Positions 4,010 through 18,888 of a stretch of 64,000 nt of DNA are shown in pieces. A model generated the notes under the pieces. It was not told the DNA's origin. It searched no databases and worked only from the letters and a program-made list of their open reading frames with translations. The position numbers and the translations under genes are program-made. Each line of letters begins with the position of its first letter. The first letter of the stretch is position 1. The DNA is from Sulfurimonas sp. (lineage in GTDB: Bacteria; Campylobacterota; Campylobacteria; Campylobacterales; Sulfurimonadaceae): assembly GCF_028714655.1 (NCBI RefSeq), contig NZ_JAQTLY010000002.1:124001-188000 (forward strand), in the 5' to 3' direction.

Positions 4010-5122
4010 ATGTTGGAAAAAGTGTTTTTTATAGGCGCGGTTTTACTCCTGGTGTTATCGGGATGCAGCCATAATCAAGATTCGGAAGACAAGGATAATT
4101 ATTCCGCAGAAGTAAGCGTAATGACGCTCAAAAAACAAAATATTGATGCACCTATGGAATTTACCGCTACAAGTGTTGCAAACAAACAGGTTCAGATACG
4201 CGCACGCATTGAAGGATATTTGTTGAGCAAAAATTATCGTGAAGGAAGTTATGTTCAATCCGGAGAGATTCTCTTTACTATTGATCCGCAACCTTTTCTG
4301 CTTGCCGTAACATCCGCAGAAGCCGCATTGGAAGGAGAAATAGCCAAAGAAGAGAATGCCGTACAAAATTTAAAGCGGGTTCAAAATCTCTTTGAGCAAA
4401 AAGCATCCGGTCAGCAAGAGCTTGATACGGCTATAGCAGCTAAGCGTACGCAAAGTGCGTTGGTTAGTGAAGCTAAAGCAGCTCTTGCTCAAGCTAAACT
4501 AAACTTAAGCTATGCGACAATCCGTTCTCCTATATCCGGATGGTCAGATAAAGTAATCCAACATGAAGGTAGCTATATCGTTCCTACTCAAAATGGCTTA
4601 TTGACGACTATTTATCAGAGCAATCCTATTTATGTAGATTTTTCAGTCGACGCTATCTCAATGGAGAAAATTAAAAAATCGATTAACAGTAGCGATAATA
4701 CACTTCTTATTGATATAATTCTTCCAAACGGGTATTTACATCCAAGCAAAGCCAAAATCTCTTTTTTAAGCCCAACCGTTGATTCGCTTAGCGGAACAAG
4801 AACGGTGCGGGCAGAACTGTCAAATCCAAACGGTGAGCTAGTACCGGGTGAATTTGTAAAGGTGAGAATTAAAGCAAGAATGGACAATACTCTTCTTATT
4901 CCTCACAAGGCATTGATGCAAGGGGCAAAAGGAACCTATGTTTACGTTATCGGCAAAAAGAATATCGCAGAGTCTCGAAGTGTTAAAGTAGGAGAGTGGG
5001 TAGAACATAATGTAGTTATACTTGAAGGGCTTAAAGAGGGTGAACAGATTGTTTGCGAAGGTAACTCAAGAGTTGAGGCAGGAAAAGCGGTAAAAATAGA
5101 CTCGGCTAAGAAAGTTCAATAA
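4010..5122 (+). CDS. RND efflux periplasmic adaptor lipoprotein (CmeA/MexA/AcrA type)
   Basis: Membrane fusion protein of 370 residues linking the inner-membrane pump to the outer-membrane channel. The signal sequence ends in a lipobox LSGC with Cys19 as lipidation site. Then come a split lipoyl domain (RARIEGYLLSKNYREGSYV and, after the coiled hairpin, YATIRSPISGWSDK), the alpha-hairpin at about 100-150, and beta-barrel and proximal domains with LVPGEFVKVRI. A GGAAG ribosome binding site precedes the ATG. The stop overlaps the next gene's start. The pump substrate (drugs, bile-like compounds or metabolites) cannot be read from the sequence. Confidence 0.92.
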   Translation: MLEKVFFIGAVLLLVLSGCSHNQDSEDKDNYSAEVSVMTLKKQNIDAPMEFTATSVANKQVQIRARIEGYLLSKNYREGSYVQSGEILFTIDPQPFLLAVTSAEAALEGEIAKEENAVQNLKRVQNLFEQKASGQQELDTAIAAKRTQSALVSEAKAALAQAKLNLSYATIRSPISGWSDKVIQHEGSYIVPTQNGLLTTIYQSNPIYVDFSVDAISMEKIKKSINSSDNTLLIDIILPNGYLHPSKAKISFLSPTVDSLSGTRTVRAELSNPNGELVPGEFVKVRIKARMDNTLLIPHKALMQGAKGTYVYVIGKKNIAESRSVKVGEWVEHNVVILEGLKEGEQIVCEGNSRVEAGKAVKIDSAKKVQ

Positions 5123-8100
5123 TGTTATCGCGATATTTCATTAATCGCCCTATTTTTGCCGGTGTCATATCTATTTTAATCGTTGTGCTTGGGTTTACGG
5201 CAACTCAAATGCTTCCCGTATCGCAGTTTCCAAATGTTATTCCTCCATCGATCAGCGTAAGTGTTACTTACCCAGGAGCCGATGCAAAAACAATTACGGA
5301 TACGGTTCTTGCCCCTATTGAAGCGCAAATTGCCGGGGCAGATAATCTTATGTATGTAAGCTCTTTGGCTTCAGGAATGTCCGGCAATGGACGAATCAGC
5401 TGTACTTTTGAGGTGGGAACCGATGTCGATAAAGCATTAAACGATATTCAAAACAGAGTCAATCTTGCTCAGCCGAGGCTTCCGAGTATAGTTAAGATGT
5501 TGGGAGTGGATGTCAAAAAGAGAACTCAAGATATCTTGATGATTACGGCTTTGTACTCTCCTGACGAGTCGATGAACGATATTGAAATCAGCAACTATGT
5601 TACTACGCATGTAATTAACAACATCAAGCGTCTTCACGGTGCAGGAAACGCGTTGGTTTCCGGTCAAAGAGATTATTCGATGCGTATTTGGCTTAACCCT
5701 GACAAGATGGCGTCAATGGGGATTGGTACTTCGGATATAGATACGGCAATCAATGAGCAAAACTTTCAGGTTAATCCCGGTCGTTTAGGGCAGGCGCCTA
5801 TTTTGAACCAGCAAATGACTGTGATGCTTACCTCCAAAGGGAGGCTTTCTACGGCAGAAGAATTTGAACAAATTATCGTTCGGACAAAGCCTGATGGCAC
5901 GATTGTTCGTCTTAGAGATGTAGCAAGAGTGGAACTTGGAACAAGTAATTATGAGTATTATGGTCGTTTCAACGGAAAACCGGCTGTTTTATTGGCTGTA
6001 TATGACCAATCAGATACTAATGCCATAGAGACGGTAGAAGCTGTAAATACTGAGTTAGAACGCCTCTCTAAAACTTTTCCTGCAGGATTGAAATATCAAA
6101 TAGCGCACAATGCAACCAAATTTGTAAAAATTTCTATTAAAGAGGTTATAAAAACACTCTCGGAAGCGTTGCTGTTGGTTATTGTAGTAATTTATCTCTT
6201 TTTGCAGAGCTTTAGAGCCACTATGATTGCTTTAATTGCTATTCCTATATCGCTTATGGGAGCATTTATCGGTATGTATCTGCTTGGGTATTCGATAAAC
6301 ACTCTGACACTCTTTGGAATGGTTTTAGCTATCGGGATAGTAGTCGATGATGCGATTGTGGTTGTAGAAAATATAGAGCGGATTATTCAGAGCGAACACC
6401 TTTCTCCAAAAGAGGCAGCAATCAAGGCGATGAGTCAAGTTTCTAGCCCGATTATAGCTATCGTTTTGGTACTTTGCGCTGTTTTTGTACCCGCAACCTT
6501 CGTGGGCGGCATGACCGGCGAGCTGTACAAACAGTTTGCGATGACGATTGCCGTATCTGTAGTATTTTCAGGCTTTGTGGCACTGACTCTCTCTCCTGCT
6601 CTTGGTGCATTGCTTTTACGCCGTCACGAGAAAGCTCCTTTGCCGCTTTTTGTGCGTTTCAATACGATGTTTGCGGATATGACAGAGCGCTATCTGCATC
6701 TCTCTTCTATAATGATTCGCAGAAGCCTTATTACTCTGCTGCTCTATCTTTCCGTTTTTGCAGTTATTTATCATCTATCTTCAACGCTGCAAAAATCATT
6801 TTTACCGGTCGAAGATCAGGGATTTTTTTTCACCGTTGTTTCTTTGCCTGAGGGTGCCACTATTGAGAGGACTCATGAGGCTGTAGTTAAAGCTGAAAAT
6901 GCGATTCAATCAATTGCCGGAGTTGAGAGCGTAGTGACGATTGTAGGAAGTAATTTTATGGGTGGAGGACAAGAGCCAAATTCCGCGACAATGATTATAC
7001 GGCTTGCTCATTGGGATCAGCGCAAGAGCGATGAGTTAAGCGTAAAGTCAATTATAAAAGAAGTTAAAAAAGCTACGGATTTCATTACGGATGCGAGTTT
7101 TAACAGCTATTCTCCACCGCCCATCAGAGGGGTAAGTAAAACAGGAGGGGTGCAGTTGTGGCTTCAAAGCCCCGACGGAGATATGGATTTGTTGGTTCAA
7201 ACTGCGCAAGATTTTATAAACAAAGCAAAAGAGATTCCACAGTTTAAGGATGTCACAAGTTCAATGCGTCCGTCTTCTCCTGTTTTGTTTATAGATGTGA
7301 ATCGTGAACGCGCAAAAATTTTAGGAGTTTCATTGGATGATCTATATTCAACGATTCAAAACACAATCGGTCTCTCGAATGTCGGTCAATTTGTTAAAGA
7401 CGGCAATACATACTGGGTTAAAGTTCAATCTGACGGAGATTTTAGGCGTGAACCGTCTGATATAGGCAGAGGGTATGTTAAATCTTCTTCCGGTGCGATG
7501 ATACCGCTTAGCTCTCTCATTAATGTAGAACAAAAATCGGCTGCCGTCAAAATTGAACACTTCAATACTACGCTTGCCGTTCCGATTAATGTAAGCCAAA
7601 AACATGGTGTGAGTACGGGAGAGATGATTAAACTGATTGAAGAGTTGTCAAAAAAATCATTACCGCCGCAGATTACCACCGGTTGGGACGGTATCGCCTA
7701 TCAACAGATTAAAGTGCAAGACAGAGCAAGAAGCATATTGCTTTTTGCGTTTGTAATCGTTTTTTTGATTCTTGCTGCCCAGTATGAAGCATGGACATTG
7801 CCGCTGGCGGTAATGCTTGCCATACCTTTTGGAATGGGCGGGGCATATATTGCAGTGTGGCTTACGGGTCAAAATAACGATGTCTTTTTCCAGATTGGAC
7901 TGCTTACTCTTGTCGCATTGGCGGCAAAAAACGCAATATTGGTAATACAGTTTGCCGAAGAGGAGCGTAAATCGGGAAAAAGCGTATATGATGCGACAAT
8001 GTCGGCGGCACGATTGCGTTATCGTCCGATGATGATGACATCATTAGCGTTTGTTTTCGGTGTATTGCCTTTAGCCTTTAGCACGGGGGCAGGGGCGGAG

Positions 8101-8238
8101 AGCCGCCATTCAATCGGCATAGGTATTTTAGGGGGAATGATTGCCGCGACATTCGTCGAACGCTATTTTATCCCTTATCTATACTATCAGGTTTCAACTT
8201 TACGAGAAAAGATACAACGATATAAGGAGAAGCGATGA
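5122..8238 (+). CDS. RND multidrug efflux transporter, HAE1 family (CmeB/AcrB type)
   Basis: Proton-driven inner-membrane pump of 1038 residues, the normal length. It has the 12-helix RND layout: a first helix at about 10-28, a porter domain, helices 2-6, a second large periplasmic domain and helices 8-12. The proton-relay Asp pair of helix 4 is present as IVVDDAIVVVENIER with D409 and D410, and a lysine of helix 10 is present in AAKNAILVIQFAEE. AcrB-like blocks such as GADAKTITDTVLAPIEAQI place it in HAE1 rather than the heavy-metal branch. It overlaps the adaptor and the outer-membrane gene by a few bases, so the three parts are translationally coupled. Confidence 0.95.
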   Translation: MLSRYFINRPIFAGVISILIVVLGFTATQMLPVSQFPNVIPPSISVSVTYPGADAKTITDTVLAPIEAQIAGADNLMYVSSLASGMSGNGRISCTFEVGTDVDKALNDIQNRVNLAQPRLPSIVKMLGVDVKKRTQDILMITALYSPDESMNDIEISNYVTTHVINNIKRLHGAGNALVSGQRDYSMRIWLNPDKMASMGIGTSDIDTAINEQNFQVNPGRLGQAPILNQQMTVMLTSKGRLSTAEEFEQIIVRTKPDGTIVRLRDVARVELGTSNYEYYGRFNGKPAVLLAVYDQSDTNAIETVEAVNTELERLSKTFPAGLKYQIAHNATKFVKISIKEVIKTLSEALLLVIVVIYLFLQSFRATMIALIAIPISLMGAFIGMYLLGYSINTLTLFGMVLAIGIVVDDAIVVVENIERIIQSEHLSPKEAAIKAMSQVSSPIIAIVLVLCAVFVPATFVGGMTGELYKQFAMTIAVSVVFSGFVALTLSPALGALLLRRHEKAPLPLFVRFNTMFADMTERYLHLSSIMIRRSLITLLLYLSVFAVIYHLSSTLQKSFLPVEDQGFFFTVVSLPEGATIERTHEAVVKAENAIQSIAGVESVVTIVGSNFMGGGQEPNSATMIIRLAHWDQRKSDELSVKSIIKEVKKATDFITDASFNSYSPPPIRGVSKTGGVQLWLQSPDGDMDLLVQTAQDFINKAKEIPQFKDVTSSMRPSSPVLFIDVNRERAKILGVSLDDLYSTIQNTIGLSNVGQFVKDGNTYWVKVQSDGDFRREPSDIGRGYVKSSSGAMIPLSSLINVEQKSAAVKIEHFNTTLAVPINVSQKHGVSTGEMIKLIEELSKKSLPPQITTGWDGIAYQQIKVQDRARSILLFAFVIVFLILAAQYEAWTLPLAVMLAIPFGMGGAYIAVWLTGQNNDVFFQIGLLTLVALAAKNAILVIQFAEEERKSGKSVYDATMSAARLRYRPMMMTSLAFVFGVLPLAFSTGAGAESRHSIGIGILGGMIAATFVERYFIPYLYYQVSTLREKIQRYKEKR

Positions 8239-9599
8239 GGCTTAACAATACTATTTTATTAAGTATAGTCGCTTTATTGGGTGCAGGTTGCAGCATAGAG
8301 CCTGATTTTACTCCTCCAAAACCAAATCTCCCGATTGAATGGAAAACAGGTGAGCAAAACAGTTCTGTTGAAGCACTAAACAAATGGTGGGAAAAACTTG
8401 GCGATTCGACTCTAAATGCGTTAGTAGACAAAGCGTTTGAACAAAACAGAGAGATTGCTGTTGTTGCGGCTCAAAATGAGAGTTTTATGGCGCAGTTGGG
8501 CATAGCGGAATCTAATCTTCTCCCGCATTTTGAGGCAGATGCTTCTATGTCTCGTCAAGAGTTGTTAAACAGCACCTCAAATAGAATATATGGGTTTAAT
8601 TTAGCCATGAGTCGATTTGAAATCGATTTTTGGAGCAAATATGCCCGTGCCGAAGAATCTGCCAAAGCTGCACTTTTGGCTAGCGAATATAATGCTAAAA
8701 TTGTTAAATCCTCTATCGCGGCAAATGTAGTCTCTGTTTATAATGCACTTTTAACTCAGCACCGCTTGCTTGAAAATGCCAAAAAAAACAGTTTGCTTTT
8801 GGAACAAATTGCATCCATCTCTAAAGCCAAATGGGAGCAGGGTGTAGGGTCATTTAGGGATGTTCTTCAAGCAGGAGCATCTGCAGATGAAGCGCGCGGC
8901 GAAATTCCGCCGATTGAGGCAAAAATATCGGTGTTGGAAAATGCTCTTTCGCTCCTTATAGGGGAATTTCCAAAAAGTTTTACGATACCTAATGCCGATA
9001 TATCGCTTTTAGAGATTGATATTCCCGTAGGGTTGCCTTCAGAGCTTTTACGACGACGCCCCGATATTTTGTCGGCGGAAGCATCCTTGCATTCAGCAAA
9101 TGCCTCTATAGGGGTGGCTAAAGCGGCATATTTTCCATCATTTTCTTTAACCGCTATGCTGGGGTATCAGAGTACGGATTTTGCCGCACTGCTAAAAGCA
9201 CCATCGCAAATATGGCAGGTTGCTCCGTCTGCCACACTGCCCATCTTTGATGCAGGGCAAATCGAAAATAAAGTCAAATATGCAAAAGCAAAAACCAAAG
9301 AAGCACAAGCACAATATGAACAGACAGTGCTTAAAGCATTGGGCGAAGTGGAGAGTGCTTTAAAGGAACGCCGTACTCTGGTAGACGAGTCTAAGGCTTT
9401 AACGAATGCACAGAAAAAATATATTCAGGCTGAACTCTTAAGCAGAGTCGAATACGATAATGGAAAAACAGGTTATTTGCCTCTGTTAATTATTCGGCAA
9501 TCATTAGTGATGAATGAAAAAAAAATAGTGTTAAACGAAGAGGCAAAACGAGAAAATTTTATTGTCTTGTGTAAAGTTCTCGGTGGAGGATGGGAATAA
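8235..9599 (+). CDS. Outer-membrane efflux lipoprotein (OprM/CmeC/NodT family)
   Basis: TolC-like channel of 454 residues completing the tripartite pump. The lipobox LGAGC gives Cys19 as the lipidated residue, followed by SIEPDFTPPKP as in NodT-family proteins. Two OEP repeats are visible, each with long helices rich in Ala and Glu, and the family block LPSELLRRRPDILSAEASL is at about 270-290. Start and pump stop overlap in ATGA. About 100 bases without a gene follow. Confidence 0.93.
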   Translation: MRLNNTILLSIVALLGAGCSIEPDFTPPKPNLPIEWKTGEQNSSVEALNKWWEKLGDSTLNALVDKAFEQNREIAVVAAQNESFMAQLGIAESNLLPHFEADASMSRQELLNSTSNRIYGFNLAMSRFEIDFWSKYARAEESAKAALLASEYNAKIVKSSIAANVVSVYNALLTQHRLLENAKKNSLLLEQIASISKAKWEQGVGSFRDVLQAGASADEARGEIPPIEAKISVLENALSLLIGEFPKSFTIPNADISLLEIDIPVGLPSELLRRRPDILSAEASLHSANASIGVAKAAYFPSFSLTAMLGYQSTDFAALLKAPSQIWQVAPSATLPIFDAGQIENKVKYAKAKTKEAQAQYEQTVLKALGEVESALKERRTLVDESKALTNAQKKYIQAELLSRVEYDNGKTGYLPLLIIRQSLVMNEKKIVLNEEAKRENFIVLCKVLGGGWE

Positions 9600-10697: not shown

Positions 10698-10772
10698 GGC
10701 CCCGTCGTCTAGCGGTAAGGATCCATGGTTTTCATCCATGTTACAGGAGTTCGATTCTCCTCGGGGTCACCA
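10698..10772 (+). tRNA. tRNA-Glu (anticodon TTC)
   Basis: 75 nt including encoded CCA. The acceptor stem pairs GGCCCCG with CGGGGTC (one G-T pair), the anticodon stem is CATGG/CCATG around loop TTTTCAT with anticodon TTC at 10731-10733, and the T arm carries GTTCGATTC. Its last 26 bases are the attachment core of the adjoining element; the tRNA is intact because the element brought an identical 3' end. Confidence 0.97.
10747..10772 (+). repeat. attL, 26-bp tRNA-Glu 3' end
   Basis: The left copy of the attachment core is inside the intact tRNA, covering its T arm, acceptor 3' strand and CCA. It is identical over 26 bases to 18863-18888. Confidence 0.93.
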
Positions 10773-11152
10773 CAACTATTGCCTATTTTAGGCACTCTCC
10801 AACTTTAAGAATTCACAAGGTCACCCCTTGGGTCATCTTTTCACTTTCAAAACATCTAAATCAACTCTTTAATCTACACATCAAAACTGATATTCAAACC
10901 ACCCTCTTCTCTTTGAAACTTCTAATATTTGCACATGCCAACAATCACAACTGGTCATACCATTACTAGGGGCTTATGGCGATGCCAAGGCTGCGATAGC
11001 AGACGAGGTTTTCGGGTGGGTGGGCATAGAGTGAAACGATTATGTCCATCCCGAACGAAACGCCATAGCCTCTAGTAATAACTTTCACCCTATTACTAAG
11101 GCATAACGGCATCTACTGATACCGTACGCTATATTTATAATTTTGAACTTCT
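10773..11152. other. Left-end non-coding stretch with a long stem
   Basis: I see no believable gene. A 19-20-bp imperfect inverted repeat pairs 10962-10981 with 11061-11079 (one bulge, one mismatch), and inside it 11014-11029 can pair with 11042-11054. This would form one elongated hairpin of about 118 nt. Near the tRNA, AAGGTCACC (10817) and TTGGGTCAT (10828) resemble motifs at the right end and may be integrase arm sites. Confidence 0.5.
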
Positions 11153-11629
11153 TTATGATGCTACTCTCCATGATACTTTGCTTGCCCCCTTTGTCTTTAC
11201 AGTCTGGCATCCATACTTTGCTTTTATGTCGTCCATGCTCTTTTGTTTTGGGTTTTTCCCTTTCATCTCTCCATAGTACCACATCTTCTTTTTTGAAGCC
11301 CATTTGAAATTTAACTCTTTAAGTATGTCTTTGATATTTTTAGTATCGCCACTCAACCAAATCCATGAACCAACTACTTCAATTACAATATTTTCATAAT
11401 GTAAAATTTTAGAGATAACTTTTTCAAGTTCTAGGTCAAACTCTGCATCTTCTGAAAAATTTAATCCATGTTCTAAAATATGGTTATATACTGAATTCAA
11501 TATTTTAAATAACTCATCTGTTCCGCCAACATCAGGATGTAATTTTTTAGCTAACTCTTTGTATATTTTTTTAGCCTCATTAATCCCATCTATACATTTA
11601 AATTGCTCTTCAATTTGTGCCCGTGTCAT
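11153..11629 (-). CDS. J-domain protein of mobile-element type
   Basis: 158 residues from the ATG at 11629; an in-frame TTG five codons upstream overlaps the GAAGGGG ribosome binding site and is therefore not chosen. Residues about 5-55 are a J domain with the HPD triad (LHPDVGG, H31-P32-D33), which would stimulate a DnaK ATPase. The C-terminal part holds VVGSWIWLSGDTKNIKDIL and LNFKWASKKKMWYY, a pattern I know from small J proteins on plasmids and phages. There is no G/F or zinc domain. It probably recruits host DnaK to an element protein such as the replication protein. It stands alone next to the non-coding region. Confidence 0.8.
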   Translation of the reverse strand: MTRAQIEEQFKCIDGINEAKKIYKELAKKLHPDVGGTDELFKILNSVYNHILEHGLNFSEDAEFDLELEKVISKILHYENIVIEVVGSWIWLSGDTKNIKDILKELNFKWASKKKMWYYGEMKGKNPKQKSMDDIKAKYGCQTVKTKGASKVSWRVAS

Positions 11630-11953
11630 GATATGCCCCTTCAATATTTGCTATAAGATTTTTAAAATCTTAGACGCTACAAGCGGAAGCTCTTCTCTCT
11701 TCCACCATTCTTTTTGGCTGAAAACCTTTTGAATACCGTCTGCTTACACTGCTACTCTTTATAATAAACTGGACGATAGTTCATTTTATTATCACGATAG
11801 TGGTGTATGCTCTAAGGGTTCACAAGTTTTCAGACAAATAGATAATAATCACGATAGTAAGAACCATGGAGTGAAGCGACCAACAAGAGCCTAGAGGCGA
11901 CTGAACGAGTACCATAAAACTAAAGAGCTGTGCCCGCAGGGATGGTTAACATC

Positions 11954-12021
11954 AACACGACATTCTTTTAAGCGTAGCGCCAACTTAATGCGAAGCTTTC
12001 AGTTGTAAAAGAATGTGTGTT
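11954..12021. repeat. Long hairpin
   Basis: A perfect 10-bp stem CATTCTTTTA/TAAAAGAATG (11961-11970 with 12006-12015) is extended outward to AACAC/GTGTT with one bulge. The apical part can form a second stem CAACT/AGTTG. Confidence 0.7.
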
Positions 12022-12031
12022 ATGTCTAAAG

Positions 12032-12166
12032 TAAACTTAGTTCATCCGCTGTGAATGTAAGTGGGTCAGTTTAGCTTCACACTTGTTTGAAGATAAACTT
12101 AGCCGTCTCATTCATGGCTGTAGGTGAAGTCAGTTTGCGTCCAAAGCTATTCCACTTGTTTGAGCG
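12032..12166. repeat. Tandem pair of structured units
   Basis: Two units start with TAAACTTAG (12032, 12094), continue with TCAGTTT (12066, 12130) and end with CACTTGTTTGA (12080, 12153). The sequence between these constants differs, yet each unit closes its own small stem: TTCA/TGAA in the first and AGCC/GGCT in the second. Each unit can also pair AAACT with AGTTT. Confidence 0.65.
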
Positions 12167-12315
12167 GAGCGAGTGAAGCCCAATGGCGTTTGAATGGAAC
12201 CATAGCAGTGAAGTGAGGCACGAACGGCACACTCCATCATCAAAACACCACACCAAAGAAACAATCACCCACTTCACATGCAACTACAAATACATACACA
12301 TAGAAAAATAGCAGA

Positions 12316-12451
12316 ATGAGACCTTGGCTCATGAAGCCGTGGAGATAGACCTTGGCTATCGTAACCTATGGAGTGAGACCGTGGCTCACGCAATGCCTAT
12401 TGTGGAACATGACCTTGGCATGTGGAATCATGGAAGCAGACCTTGGCTGCT
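12316..12451. repeat. Array of five hairpins with a constant loop and covarying stems
   Basis: Five 17-base hairpins lie at 12316-12332, 12344-12360, 12373-12389, 12407-12423 and 12435-12451, with start spacing 28, 29, 34 and 28. The loop is ACCTTGG in four and ACCGTGG in one. Stems are ATGAG/CTCAT, GATAG/CTATC, GTGAG/CTCAC, ACATG/CATGT and AGCAG/CTGCT: all different, all perfectly paired. Linkers begin mostly with GNAA and end in TGGA. The spacing is not a multiple of three and stops break every frame, so this is not a coding repeat. Confidence 0.85.
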
Positions 12452-12806
12452 GCAATAGCGTGTAAAAATATTATTTGTTTGTATATGGTGTGCGGGGGGA
12501 TATCTTTGTGTAGAGTCTGTGTAATATGTGTCACTATAGACATACGGGAAAATTTGTTGATTTGAAAACTTTTATCCCCTTATGGTAGCAATCGTGCAAG
12601 CATTGAGGAAGTATTGAGTGGATGCAAGGGTATAAGTATTGAGAATTTTGGTATTTTTTTTAAGTGTAATCATTGCATTTTGAGAGAGAATGGAACGAGG
12701 AAACAAGTGATGCTTGAAATCGAGTCATATCAATAAAAATTTATTTTTCATACTTAGACCCTTGATTTTTTAATACTATTTTTTTTTAAATAAAACTAAT
12801 ACAATA

Positions 12807-14018: not shown

Positions 14019-14273
14019 ATGTATGAACAGTTGGATATCGAAGCGAATGAGTTGCTTAATGTTATCTCATCCAATGTTGTCAAAATCAGAAAAGCCAAAG
14101 GCTATAGTCAACTCAAGTTGGCAACTGAAATGGGATATAGCAGTGCTTCTTATTTAGGTTGTATCGAAATCAGAAAAAATGGTCAGCACTTCAATATTAC
14201 ACAACTTCATAAAATCAGCAAAATCCTTGATGTACCAATTGCTCAATTTTTTGAACCACTGCAAGAAGAGTAG
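14019..14273 (+). CDS. XRE-family HTH regulator
   Basis: 84 residues. The region of about 15-73 is a Cro/C1-type helix-turn-helix: NVVKIRKAKGYSQLKLATEM, then YLGCIEIRKNGQHFNITQLH and ISKILDVPIAQFF. It has no ligand or protease domain. It is divergent from the three exported-protein genes, with a perfect palindrome right before its start, and lies within the 19-bp inverted repeats, so it probably regulates this module and itself. Confidence 0.87.
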   Translation: MYEQLDIEANELLNVISSNVVKIRKAKGYSQLKLATEMGYSSASYLGCIEIRKNGQHFNITQLHKISKILDVPIAQFFEPLQEE

Positions 14274-14398: not shown

Positions 14399-14470
14399 TT
14401 AGACAAATTAGACACACCCTCTATGTGTAAGTTTATATACACATGCAGAGAGTGTCTGTCTAAGTGTCTA
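14399..14470. repeat. Long imperfect inverted repeat after the helicase gene
   Basis: Both arms contain two TTAGAC copies, an ACACCCTCT/AGAGAGTGTCT block and, at the tip, TGTGTA/TACACA. The hairpin touches the stop codon of the leftward helicase gene. It may be a transcription terminator or a replication structure beside the replication gene. Confidence 0.55.
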
Positions 14471-15736
14471 ACTTGCTAGTTTATAGTAGTATGTACTCTC
14501 CACCATTTCCTTATTTATAAATCCAGATTCGATTAAATCATCAAGTAACTCAATCCTTTCTCTACTTTTGAGGGTGCTAAAAGGTCTTGCTTTTTGAGCA
14601 AGGTGTGTGAGCGATACTTTACCGTCTTTAAGATTCTTGAACCATTTGATGGCTTTATGTTTGAGTATCTCATACCTTGTAGCTGATGCCTCTTTTTCAA
14701 ATGAAGCCATAAAACTTAAACTAGAGTGTTTAACAAGATTGTAGCACCATTTCAAAACTTCTAGCGACACAACATCTAGTTTTTCAAACGCAGTGAGTGC
14801 TGTTGCCAGTCTTATGGCGTTTTCTCTCCATCTTATGGATATAGCTCGTTTTACATCTGTTTCATCATTGAGACAGTATCTGTAAATGTCTGTATTTTTG
14901 ATGTCCGCATCTCCAATGTATTGATGATAATACGCTCTTGCTTTTTCTGAGAGTGGCACAATAAATTTGATTGAAGCATCATGATTTGTGAAATTATTTT
15001 TTTGCAACAGTTTTAAATGCTCAACCAACTCTTTTGGAACACCATTGAAAACTTTTTGCGGAAATATTGGCTCTACATCATGCCCATTTAGGATGATAAA
15101 CCTATTTAAAAAGCCATCATGTAGCATATCATCTGTTAAATGCTTAAATAGTTGGGTTTTGGTCGTTATGCCCGTGAGTCCAAAACAAGGTCTATCAAGC
15201 GTCCAAGGCTCATTGGTTTTTGTTTTACCGCCTGAGCTTGAGTACCTGCCTGATTCGTAGTTTCCATTTGTTGAGCTATAAAGATTTTTTATCTTCGCTG
15301 CTAATGATTTAAGATAGCCCCCTTTGTCACTCATCATGTTACCTAGATGGTCACCAAACTCATCGACAACTTGAATTGCTACATTTTGCTGCTTGAAAAT
15401 ATCATCTAATGCACCGATACTTGAAATCTTAGAAGAGATAATAAGCCTAGAATACTCTATAGTGTCCAATGCTTTAATGGGTGCATGCGTTGCAATATTT
15501 TTACCTGCACCAGTTTTGGCTATCAAGATTTGATAAAGTGTCGTTGAAGCACCGGTTTCTGTGTAAAAAGTTCTAGCTGTTATCGCACTTGCAATTGTAA
15601 ACAGTGTTGCCAATGCTGCTGTAGGGTGTGTTTTATGCTCAGAGCATAGTAGCCATTCTAAAGTCAGTTGACTCATTTGCAATTCAGCAGGGAATTTTTC
15701 CCAGCTGCTTGCTGTTGGTAGTGATGGTGTTTTCAT
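14468..15736 (-). CDS. P-loop ATPase, DUF3987-like replicative helicase
   Basis: 422 residues. The Walker A-like AKTGAGKN lies at 73-80, a Walker B-like VVDEFGDH at 123-130, and FGLTGITTKTQLFKHLTDD with GFLNRFIIL follows at about 190-220, the pattern of DUF3987 and related primase-helicase proteins of phages and islands. The C-terminal 70 residues look like a winged helix (LTHLAQKARPFSTLKSRERIELLDDL). It probably unwinds or initiates replication of the excised element. It overlaps the preceding gene in ATGA and ends at a long hairpin. Family name moderately sure; ATPase sure. Confidence 0.78.
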   Translation of the reverse strand: MKTPSLPTASSWEKFPAELQMSQLTLEWLLCSEHKTHPTAALATLFTIASAITARTFYTETGASTTLYQILIAKTGAGKNIATHAPIKALDTIEYSRLIISSKISSIGALDDIFKQQNVAIQVVDEFGDHLGNMMSDKGGYLKSLAAKIKNLYSSTNGNYESGRYSSSGGKTKTNEPWTLDRPCFGLTGITTKTQLFKHLTDDMLHDGFLNRFIILNGHDVEPIFPQKVFNGVPKELVEHLKLLQKNNFTNHDASIKFIVPLSEKARAYYHQYIGDADIKNTDIYRYCLNDETDVKRAISIRWRENAIRLATALTAFEKLDVVSLEVLKWCYNLVKHSSLSFMASFEKEASATRYEILKHKAIKWFKNLKDGKVSLTHLAQKARPFSTLKSRERIELLDDLIESGFINKEMVESTYYYKLAS

Positions 15737-17613: not shown

Positions 17614-18705
17614 TCACTCACCCAACAACCTTTTACTAGCATCCAGCGTATGCACCGATGAACTCTCTCGCTGCAGTGATAGATACTGCTTCACTGTTGC
17701 AGTATCTGTATGCCCTAACATGGCACTCAAATGTATGGCTTCAACTCCCATGGAAGATAGAGCAGATACAGATAAGTTACGCATCCAGTGAAAGTTATAC
17801 TCTGGCACTGTTGCCGCCCTCACCTTTTCCACATGCTCCCGTATTTCTGATATTGGCTTTAATGGGTCTCGGTCACTTGCAAATATATAACTACTAAATT
17901 TTTCACACTCTAGTAGTGCCGCTTTTACATCTTGTGGAAGCTTGAAACTCATGTCAGTATTGATTTTACTATTTACACCTCTAATGGTGTAGCTGTCATT
18001 CACAAAATCTATATCGCTCCACTTCAAGTGCAGTGCTTCCGTTTTTCTTCTTCCATAAAATCCAAATAAGAATAACGCTCTGATTTTATGATTATCTGCG
18101 AACACATCGTTTATAGCTTTGTAAACTTCTCGATATTTGGTTTCTGCATTACTGATTACTTTTTTCTCTTCTAGTTGCTTGCGTTTAATCTTGTGGATGT
18201 GCTTCACTGGTGAAAACTGTATCAGCTCTTCATCTATAGCCAGTCTAAAGATAGGAACCAAGATAGCAGTGCTCTTTTGTCTCGTAGAGTTGGCTAAATG
18301 TTTTGTGAGAGCTGTAATAGTTGATATATGCATCGCTGTCACGCTTGTTATCTTCAGTCTGCCAATAGTAGGCTTGATGTACCTCTCATAATGAAGCTTA
18401 TAAGATTTTTGTGTCTCTTCATTCCGCTCTGTCATCAGCTGCAGTCTGTCAAAGTATTCATCCACTGTAGCCACTAAATTGGCTCCAGACGATTCTACCC
18501 TCACCTTTGCACCTTTGAGTTCTTCTAACTTTATGTATGCAGTTTTTAGTTTATCTGCCTTTGTATGTGCAGGGTTAGCGTTGAATACTTGCCGTGTTGC
18601 CTTGCCGTTTATTCTAAAATTAAACAAAAATTTGCTAGAATCGCTTTTATGAATAAACAAGCCTTTGTGCTTTGTATCTAAGTAGTCACTGAGTAAGATA
18701 GCCAT
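17614..18705 (-). CDS. int: Tyrosine-type site-specific integrase
   Basis: 363 residues, the usual size for tRNA-targeting integrases. An N-terminal arm-binding domain and a SAM-like core-binding domain (about 75-175) precede the catalytic domain. Catalytic residues seen: R220 (GFYGRRKTEALHLKWSDID), K247 region, H306 and R309 (HWMRN), H332 (GHTD), Y341 (KQYLSL). It lies 157 bases from attR and reads inward. GAGGTG precedes the ATG. It should join the tRNA-Glu 3' end to the element's own copy. The next gene begins eight bases after its stop. Confidence 0.95.
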   Translation of the reverse strand: MAILLSDYLDTKHKGLFIHKSDSSKFLFNFRINGKATRQVFNANPAHTKADKLKTAYIKLEELKGAKVRVESSGANLVATVDEYFDRLQLMTERNEETQKSYKLHYERYIKPTIGRLKITSVTAMHISTITALTKHLANSTRQKSTAILVPIFRLAIDEELIQFSPVKHIHKIKRKQLEEKKVISNAETKYREVYKAINDVFADNHKIRALFLFGFYGRRKTEALHLKWSDIDFVNDSYTIRGVNSKINTDMSFKLPQDVKAALLECEKFSSYIFASDRDPLKPISEIREHVEKVRAATVPEYNFHWMRNLSVSALSSMGVEAIHLSAMLGHTDTATVKQYLSLQRESSSVHTLDASKRLLGE

Positions 18706-18862: not shown

Positions 18863-18888
18863 GAGTTCGATTCTCCTCGGGGTCACCA
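18863..18888 (+). repeat. attR, 26-bp copy of the tRNA-Glu 3' end
   Basis: Identical to 10747-10772 over 26 bases; the sequence left of it (AATAGTGAA) no longer matches the tRNA, so it is only the displaced 3' fragment. Confidence 0.93.

Follow-up and report, generated by a model that had tools for sequence, protein, structure and literature searches.

A predicted large structured RNA of small, tRNA-targeted integrative elements in Sulfurimonas, ending in an array of sister hairpins

The window analyzed here, a 64-kb stretch (64,000 nucleotides) of a Sulfurimonas sp. contig, contains an integrative element of 8142 bp (8.14 kb) bounded by 26-bp repeats of a tRNA-Glu 3′ end. The integration site is tRNA-Glu (TTC), located by ARAGORN at 10698–10772 on the + strand, whose last 26 bases (10747–10772) constitute attL; the second copy of this direct repeat, attR, lies at 18863–18888 (+). 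A tyrosine integrase (17614–18705, − strand; Pfam Phage_integrase, phrog_1) completes the arrangement expected of an integrative element, an integrase and, at a tRNA gene, direct att repeats, which is likewise seen in a second genome, G006. Other products of the window element are a primase/helicase-like replication protein (14468–15736, −; phrog_3022, E 2.5e-45), an XRE-type helix-turn-helix regulator (14019–14273, +), identified by Pfam HTH_3 and all-against-all blastp, and a DnaJ-like protein (11153–11644, −; phrog_15863, PHROG E 1e-35, Pfam DnaJ below cut-off), whose gene is divergent from the RNA described below. A Sel1 gene also lies within the element.

Five hairpins, each with a 5-bp stem and a 7-nt loop, occupy positions 12316–12451 on the + strand, with start spacings of 28, 29, 34 and 28 nucleotides: hairpin 1 (12316–12332, +, ATGAG-ACCTTGG-CTCAT), hairpin 2 (12344–12360, +, GATAG-ACCTTGG-CTATC), hairpin 3 (12373–12389, +, GTGAG-ACCGTGG-CTCAC), hairpin 4 (12407–12423, +, ACATG-ACCTTGG-CATGT) and hairpin 5 (12435–12451, +, AGCAG-ACCTTGG-CTGCT). 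A sequence-only reading had described these stems, loops and spacings, which were recovered at exactly the same positions, and had suspected a mobile element around them, as the tRNA-Glu att repeats and the integrase bear out. The array is intergenic; the sole listed ORF nearby (12077–12283, −) ends before it. Perfect 5-7-5 hairpins reach their highest density in the window here: the 136-base array holds five, versus a mean of 0.10 and a maximum of 3 in 5000 dinucleotide shuffles. With the five loops given, the chance of perfect stems at all of them is ~1e-15 under the local base composition, and the remaining five ACC[T/G]TGG sites of the window have merely 0–2 of five stem pairs. In thermodynamic folding, the array is not more stable than shuffled sequences (z −0.34). 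Nearest-neighbour folding gives mixed support, with high probability for some of the hairpins only; alternatives compete, and not all five hairpins are favored. The case for the array therefore rests on covariation.

The sequence-only reading had missed the larger feature to which the array belongs as its 3′ part and which takes in the intergenic region from ~11655: comparison with relatives predicts a structured RNA of ~0.8 kb on the + strand (~11655–12455). Its 5′ structured domain (11655–12235, +, 5′ end approximate) is supported by homologues, covariation and shuffle tests, and is joined to the array by an A/C-rich linker (12236–12315, +) that, judged from its sequence and from comparison with relatives, has no recognized conserved structure. 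When the whole intergenic region was searched as DNA against the genus, relatives of window positions 11700–12230 were found in other genomes. An alignment of the 5′ domain (five sequences, with G153 represented by the stretches on either side of a ~700-bp insertion) contains 162 predicted pairs, 34 of them doubly compensated, and a core alignment of seven sequences contains a long helix with 97% of its cells paired and seven pairs changed on both sides; the structures were derived from the same alignments in which pairs were counted, so these absolute counts are inflated, an effect that the shuffled and slid controls reduce without abolishing it. The two halves of the domain fold beyond column shuffles, with z-scores of −8.6 and −8.0. 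The ~700 bp inserted in the 5′ domain of G153 (L257 2640–3310) includes an ORF that resembles a phage DNA methyltransferase (phrog_799).

The strand of the RNA follows from wobble pairs. In the 3′ half of the 5′ domain, reading the + strand gives 27 G-U and 9 A-C pairs, versus 5 G-U and 20 A-C pairs in the reverse reading, and the RNA is therefore assigned to the + strand; the 5′ half, taken alone, leaves the strand undecided. The sequence-only reading had proposed either an RNA or single-stranded DNA hairpins, and this strand bias in the attached domain favors the former. Hairpins in single-stranded DNA could serve the element when it replicates, transfers or integrates, as the location of the array near attL would suit, and variable stems around a constant loop can also be read in single-stranded DNA. 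However, the array is attached to a domain with RNA-type wobble pairs on one strand, and no rolling-circle or relaxase gene was recognized among the element proteins scanned, which makes this explanation very unlikely.

Among the genomes searched, the RNA was found in several species of the genus. A core model matches 7 of 135 Sulfurimonas genomes, with E-values of 1e-20 to 1e-27, and nothing credible beyond the genus among the 397 class genomes searched; a model built on a different part of the 5′ domain matches five of the seven, and G006 and G103 lack the part in question. In this sample of seven genomes, several of them draft, six have a hairpin array downstream of the core. This co-occurrence is independent evidence, because the loci were found without use of the hairpins. 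Strong matches to a two-hairpin model (E <1e-5) occur only in six of the seven core-bearing genomes, at one locus per genome and two in G026. Pairs unused in model building, namely window hairpins 3–4, the second pair of G026 and the second locus of G026, were recovered with E-values of 1.7e-7 to 2.1e-6. Downstream of the 5′ domain, G088 has hairpins with AGCAG and GTGAG stems; the stems are ATCAG (loop ACTTCGG) and GCGAG in G150, ATCTT and GTGAG in G153, ACAAG in G006, and GTGAG, GCAAG and GCAGTG in G026. The second G026 locus is an array without the 5′ domain that adjoins tRNA-Glu, and in G103 the core stands alone, with no array recognized. A further hairpin-like stretch, GCCGTACC[G/T]TGTAGGC, lies 5′ of the array in G088, G150 and G006, and slightly altered in G153.

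Models R1, R2 and R3, run over 377–397 genomes of the class, gave no credible match outside the genus, in a search that scores 8–15 candidates per genome and may thus miss distant relatives. Of the weak R2 matches (E >1e-3), eight were inspected and none had an array, and minus-strand matches of R1 and R3 were dismissed as the shadow of true + strand matches. The window copy and four relatives had no match in Rfam 15, either at gathering thresholds or at E-values up to 1–10; in BLASTN against phage and plasmid collections, neither the array nor the whole RNA had a match, and strict core patterns and two element proteins were likewise not found in viral contigs. A loose two-loop pattern, sought in genome and viral collections, gave hits that, among the matches listed, were scattered over unrelated organisms and were treated as chance. 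The sequence-only reading had known of no described family and had suggested an Rfam scan; the window copy is indeed without a match there, and none came from phages or plasmids. Judged from sequence comparison, this is a real, previously undescribed RNA family with an unusual modular tail, and almost certainly a conserved mobile-element RNA carrying such a hairpin array.

The neighborhoods of the relatives are partly alike. Repeats involving tRNA-Ser flank the G006 RNA, and the far end codes for an integrase-like protein, judged from its own sequence and a weak blastp match to the G088 integrase; in G088 the RNA is enclosed by an 18-bp repeat and an integrase is present. In G150 and G103 an integrase was not seen, and the mobile-element setting is not established for either. 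Relatives of the XRE regulator stand beside the RNA in G088, G150 and at both G026 loci (three genomes, four loci), besides G000, and by all-against-all blastp this is the one protein widely common to the RNA-bearing elements; we know of no RNA binding by this regulator. In G088 an ArdA antirestriction gene (L258 4955–5509) is located just upstream of the RNA and divergent from it, a place taken by the DnaJ-like gene in G000 and G153. Just 3′ of the array in G150, a 400-aa ORF (L256 3609–4811) resembles, by eye, an IS256-type transposase. A run of 6–9 G follows ~45–110 bases 3′ of the array in several copies (window ~12495; L259 10197; L322 8058, −).

Apart from the array, the window element has a second conserved structured element with GGGTGGGTGGG, at 10962–11083 (+), predicted from its RNA fold (z −5.5), relatives and covariation; 12 of its 36 pairs are doubly changed, and it has no Rfam match. 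It recurs in the same mobile elements, at L255 ~6530–6680 (−), L257 ~1640–1790, L258 ~4765–4915 and L322 ~8225–8362 (−), and in L322 it lies directly 5′ of the hairpin array.

Covariation within the array is pronounced. In a two-hairpin alignment of eight rows, not fully independent in that two rows have a common hairpin and three come from the window, 8 of 10 pairs are doubly changed, 93.7% of cells are paired versus 64.4% after shuffling, and the covariation score is 0.786 versus 0.184 for shuffled and at most 0.19 for slid controls. For 11 distinct single units, the score is 0.81 versus 0.19. Selection for structure, which the sequence-only reading had deduced from the five unlike stems, is upheld by the covariation that keeps stems paired among relatives. 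That reading had also proposed a covariance-model search and named homologues with broken stems as evidence against itself: the two-hairpin model recovers arrays in related genomes, and in five further genomes the stems are maintained.

The typical unit has a 5-bp stem of free sequence and is separated from the next by a linker of ~11 nt that starts with G-N-A-R and ends with R-A or A-A. The loop follows the consensus A-Y-Y-N-N-G-G, sometimes one base longer, while stem sequence and hairpin number vary. Its first base is A in 11 of 11 seven-base loops, and positions 2-7 and 3-6 are C-G or U-G in 20 of 22 cells (U-G once, broken twice). The loop that the earlier reading called constant is only partly so, relatives having variants such as ACTTCGG, ACCGAGG and ACTTTAGG, among others; the edges of its linkers are kept too, but TGGA is typical of the window copy and relatives mostly have CGAA or CGGA. 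Since loop sequence and length vary in relatives, the recognition motif appears looser than in the window copy.

Several known repeat types were compared with this pattern and rejected. CRISPR repeats are identical, whereas here stems differ and loop and linker edges are kept; REP/BIME palindromes are dispersed through the genome in many copies, whereas strong matches mark a single locus in each genome except G026, which has two. The RNA of type III toxin-antitoxin systems (ToxI) consists of near-identical tandem repeats, unlike these differing stems, and no ToxN-type toxin was detected by Pfam among ORFs scanned around the array or by PADLOC among five element ORFs. A mimic of the tRNA anticodon arm, with its 5-bp stem and 7-nt loop, does not agree with the eight-base loops of some units or with the absence of the conserved U33.

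In protein-sponge RNAs of the CsrB/RsmZ type, hairpins recur whose loop is constant and whose stems vary. The layout of the array recalls them, and a CsrB-like RNA titrating the translation regulator CsrA through GGA sites would match the TGGA in the linkers of the window copy. Such an RNA would also fill a gap, since CsrA control in Campylobacter jejuni is reported to operate without antagonising small RNAs (PMC4894983). Against this, GGA lies outside the loops, is enriched in none of six arrays (p 0.13–0.90; ANGGA p 0.10–0.42) and gives way to CGAA in several relatives; the window RNA differs further from CsrB/RsmZ in its ~580-nt conserved 5′ domain and its location in a mobile element. A CsrA sponge is highly improbable.

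Phage satellites offer another comparison. The satellite PLE has a transcript with antisense homology to the leaders of its own genes, and P4-like satellites have regulatory RNAs (PMC7567579). By analogy, the loops could be seeds pairing with CCAAGG or CCACGG in target mRNAs. However, complementary hexamers within the elements number 0–3 per element on the strand counted, are not consistently enriched and are absent in G006, and the loop drifts among relatives; an antisense role is accordingly quite unlikely. The family resembles the noncoding RNAs of PLE and of phage ICP1 in a broader sense, in that satellites and phages have long or abundant noncoding transcripts (PMC7567579), and differs in that packaging genes were not recognized in the window element, a comparison made by description and not by sequence.

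The loop pairs permit, as read from sequence, two arrangements: in one, an A is bulged and two pairs close a 2-base loop; in the other, self-complementary loops contact each other. The inner C-G pairs are nearly invariant, and the bulged-A reading is therefore without proof from covariation. Under it, ATCAG-A-C(UUCG)G-CTGAT would contain the classical UUCG tetraloop. Were the bulged-A reading right, each hairpin would recall, in form only, the coat-protein operators of MS2-type RNA phages, in which a lower stem is followed by a lone A on the 5′ side, two further pairs and a small loop, with many sites along one RNA in both cases. The upper pairs of the array are different and its loop is shorter, a coat protein was not found, and there is no sign of kinship.

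The second arrangement would allow self-assembly: CCNNGG loops would kiss between RNA copies, and the tail would aid a homo-oligomer, as in ROOL and GOLLD cages. The loop retains its CC and GG ends from unit to unit, the 8-base loops ACCTTAGG, ACTTTAGG and ATCTAAGG are nearly self-complementary around a central mismatch, and GOLLD, ROOL and OLE are RNA-only complexes using kissing loops (PMC12286853). On the other hand, the commonest loop, ACCTTGG, would leave two central U-U mismatches, and the same positions could pair inside their own hairpin; self-assembly is unlikely. A bolder version is more doubtful still: a new, self-assembling class of large mobile-element RNA whose 3′ sister hairpins, their stems diversified in matched pairs, would be multivalent hooks by which an RNA-only particle docks or sequesters a factor of the host or of a phage.

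GOLLD and ROOL are large ornate noncoding RNAs of phages and prophages, often beside tRNA genes and with a poorly conserved linker (PMC12286853). The window RNA is like them in size class, complex fold, mobile-element setting, tRNA neighborhood and the poorly conserved linker (PMC12286853), and agrees with what marks these families, a predicted structured RNA of >500 nt in a mobile element beside a tRNA. In G000 and G006, the proximity to tRNA is due to integration into tRNA genes. Unlike a family member, the window RNA does not match the GOLLD or ROOL covariance models of Rfam 15, even at permissive thresholds; it differs further in the 3′ sister-hairpin array on its A/C-rich linker and in its carriers, which are small integrative elements. 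The resemblance thus lies in setting, not in sequence.

We favor, with a probability of roughly 0.6, a large noncoding RNA of small tRNA-targeted integrative elements whose array tail displays several sites to a partner. The loop, its first A, the edges of the linkers and the pairing of the stems are kept, and the sequence of the stems and the number of copies change, which argues for display of a motif and not for a DNA operator. The 5′ domain would fold, and the A/C-rich linker joins it to a tail, proposed to be flexible, with a varying number of hairpins. Each hairpin, read as a stem and a bulged A below two short pairs (CC/GG) that carry a loop of 2–3 nt, would present one recognition motif. 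The tail may then collect several copies of one partner. This would most likely be an RNA-binding protein, supplied by the host or by a phage (invading or helper), that is titrated or docked on the 5′ domain; further copies of the RNA itself are the less likely choice. Stems would differ within an array because only pairing matters in them, and unlike stems would limit mispairing and recombination among neighboring hairpins. For the tail taken by itself, we put multivalent display at even odds.

To our knowledge, GOLLD and ROOL have no known function, and few structured RNAs of very large size are known to us from bacterial mobile elements. The modular tail is a natural handle, with one small motif, varying copy number and interchangeable stems, and lets short synthetic RNAs be used to fish for the partner and the effect of valency be tested directly. 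The family suggests that small integrative elements, besides phages and prophages, carry such large RNAs.
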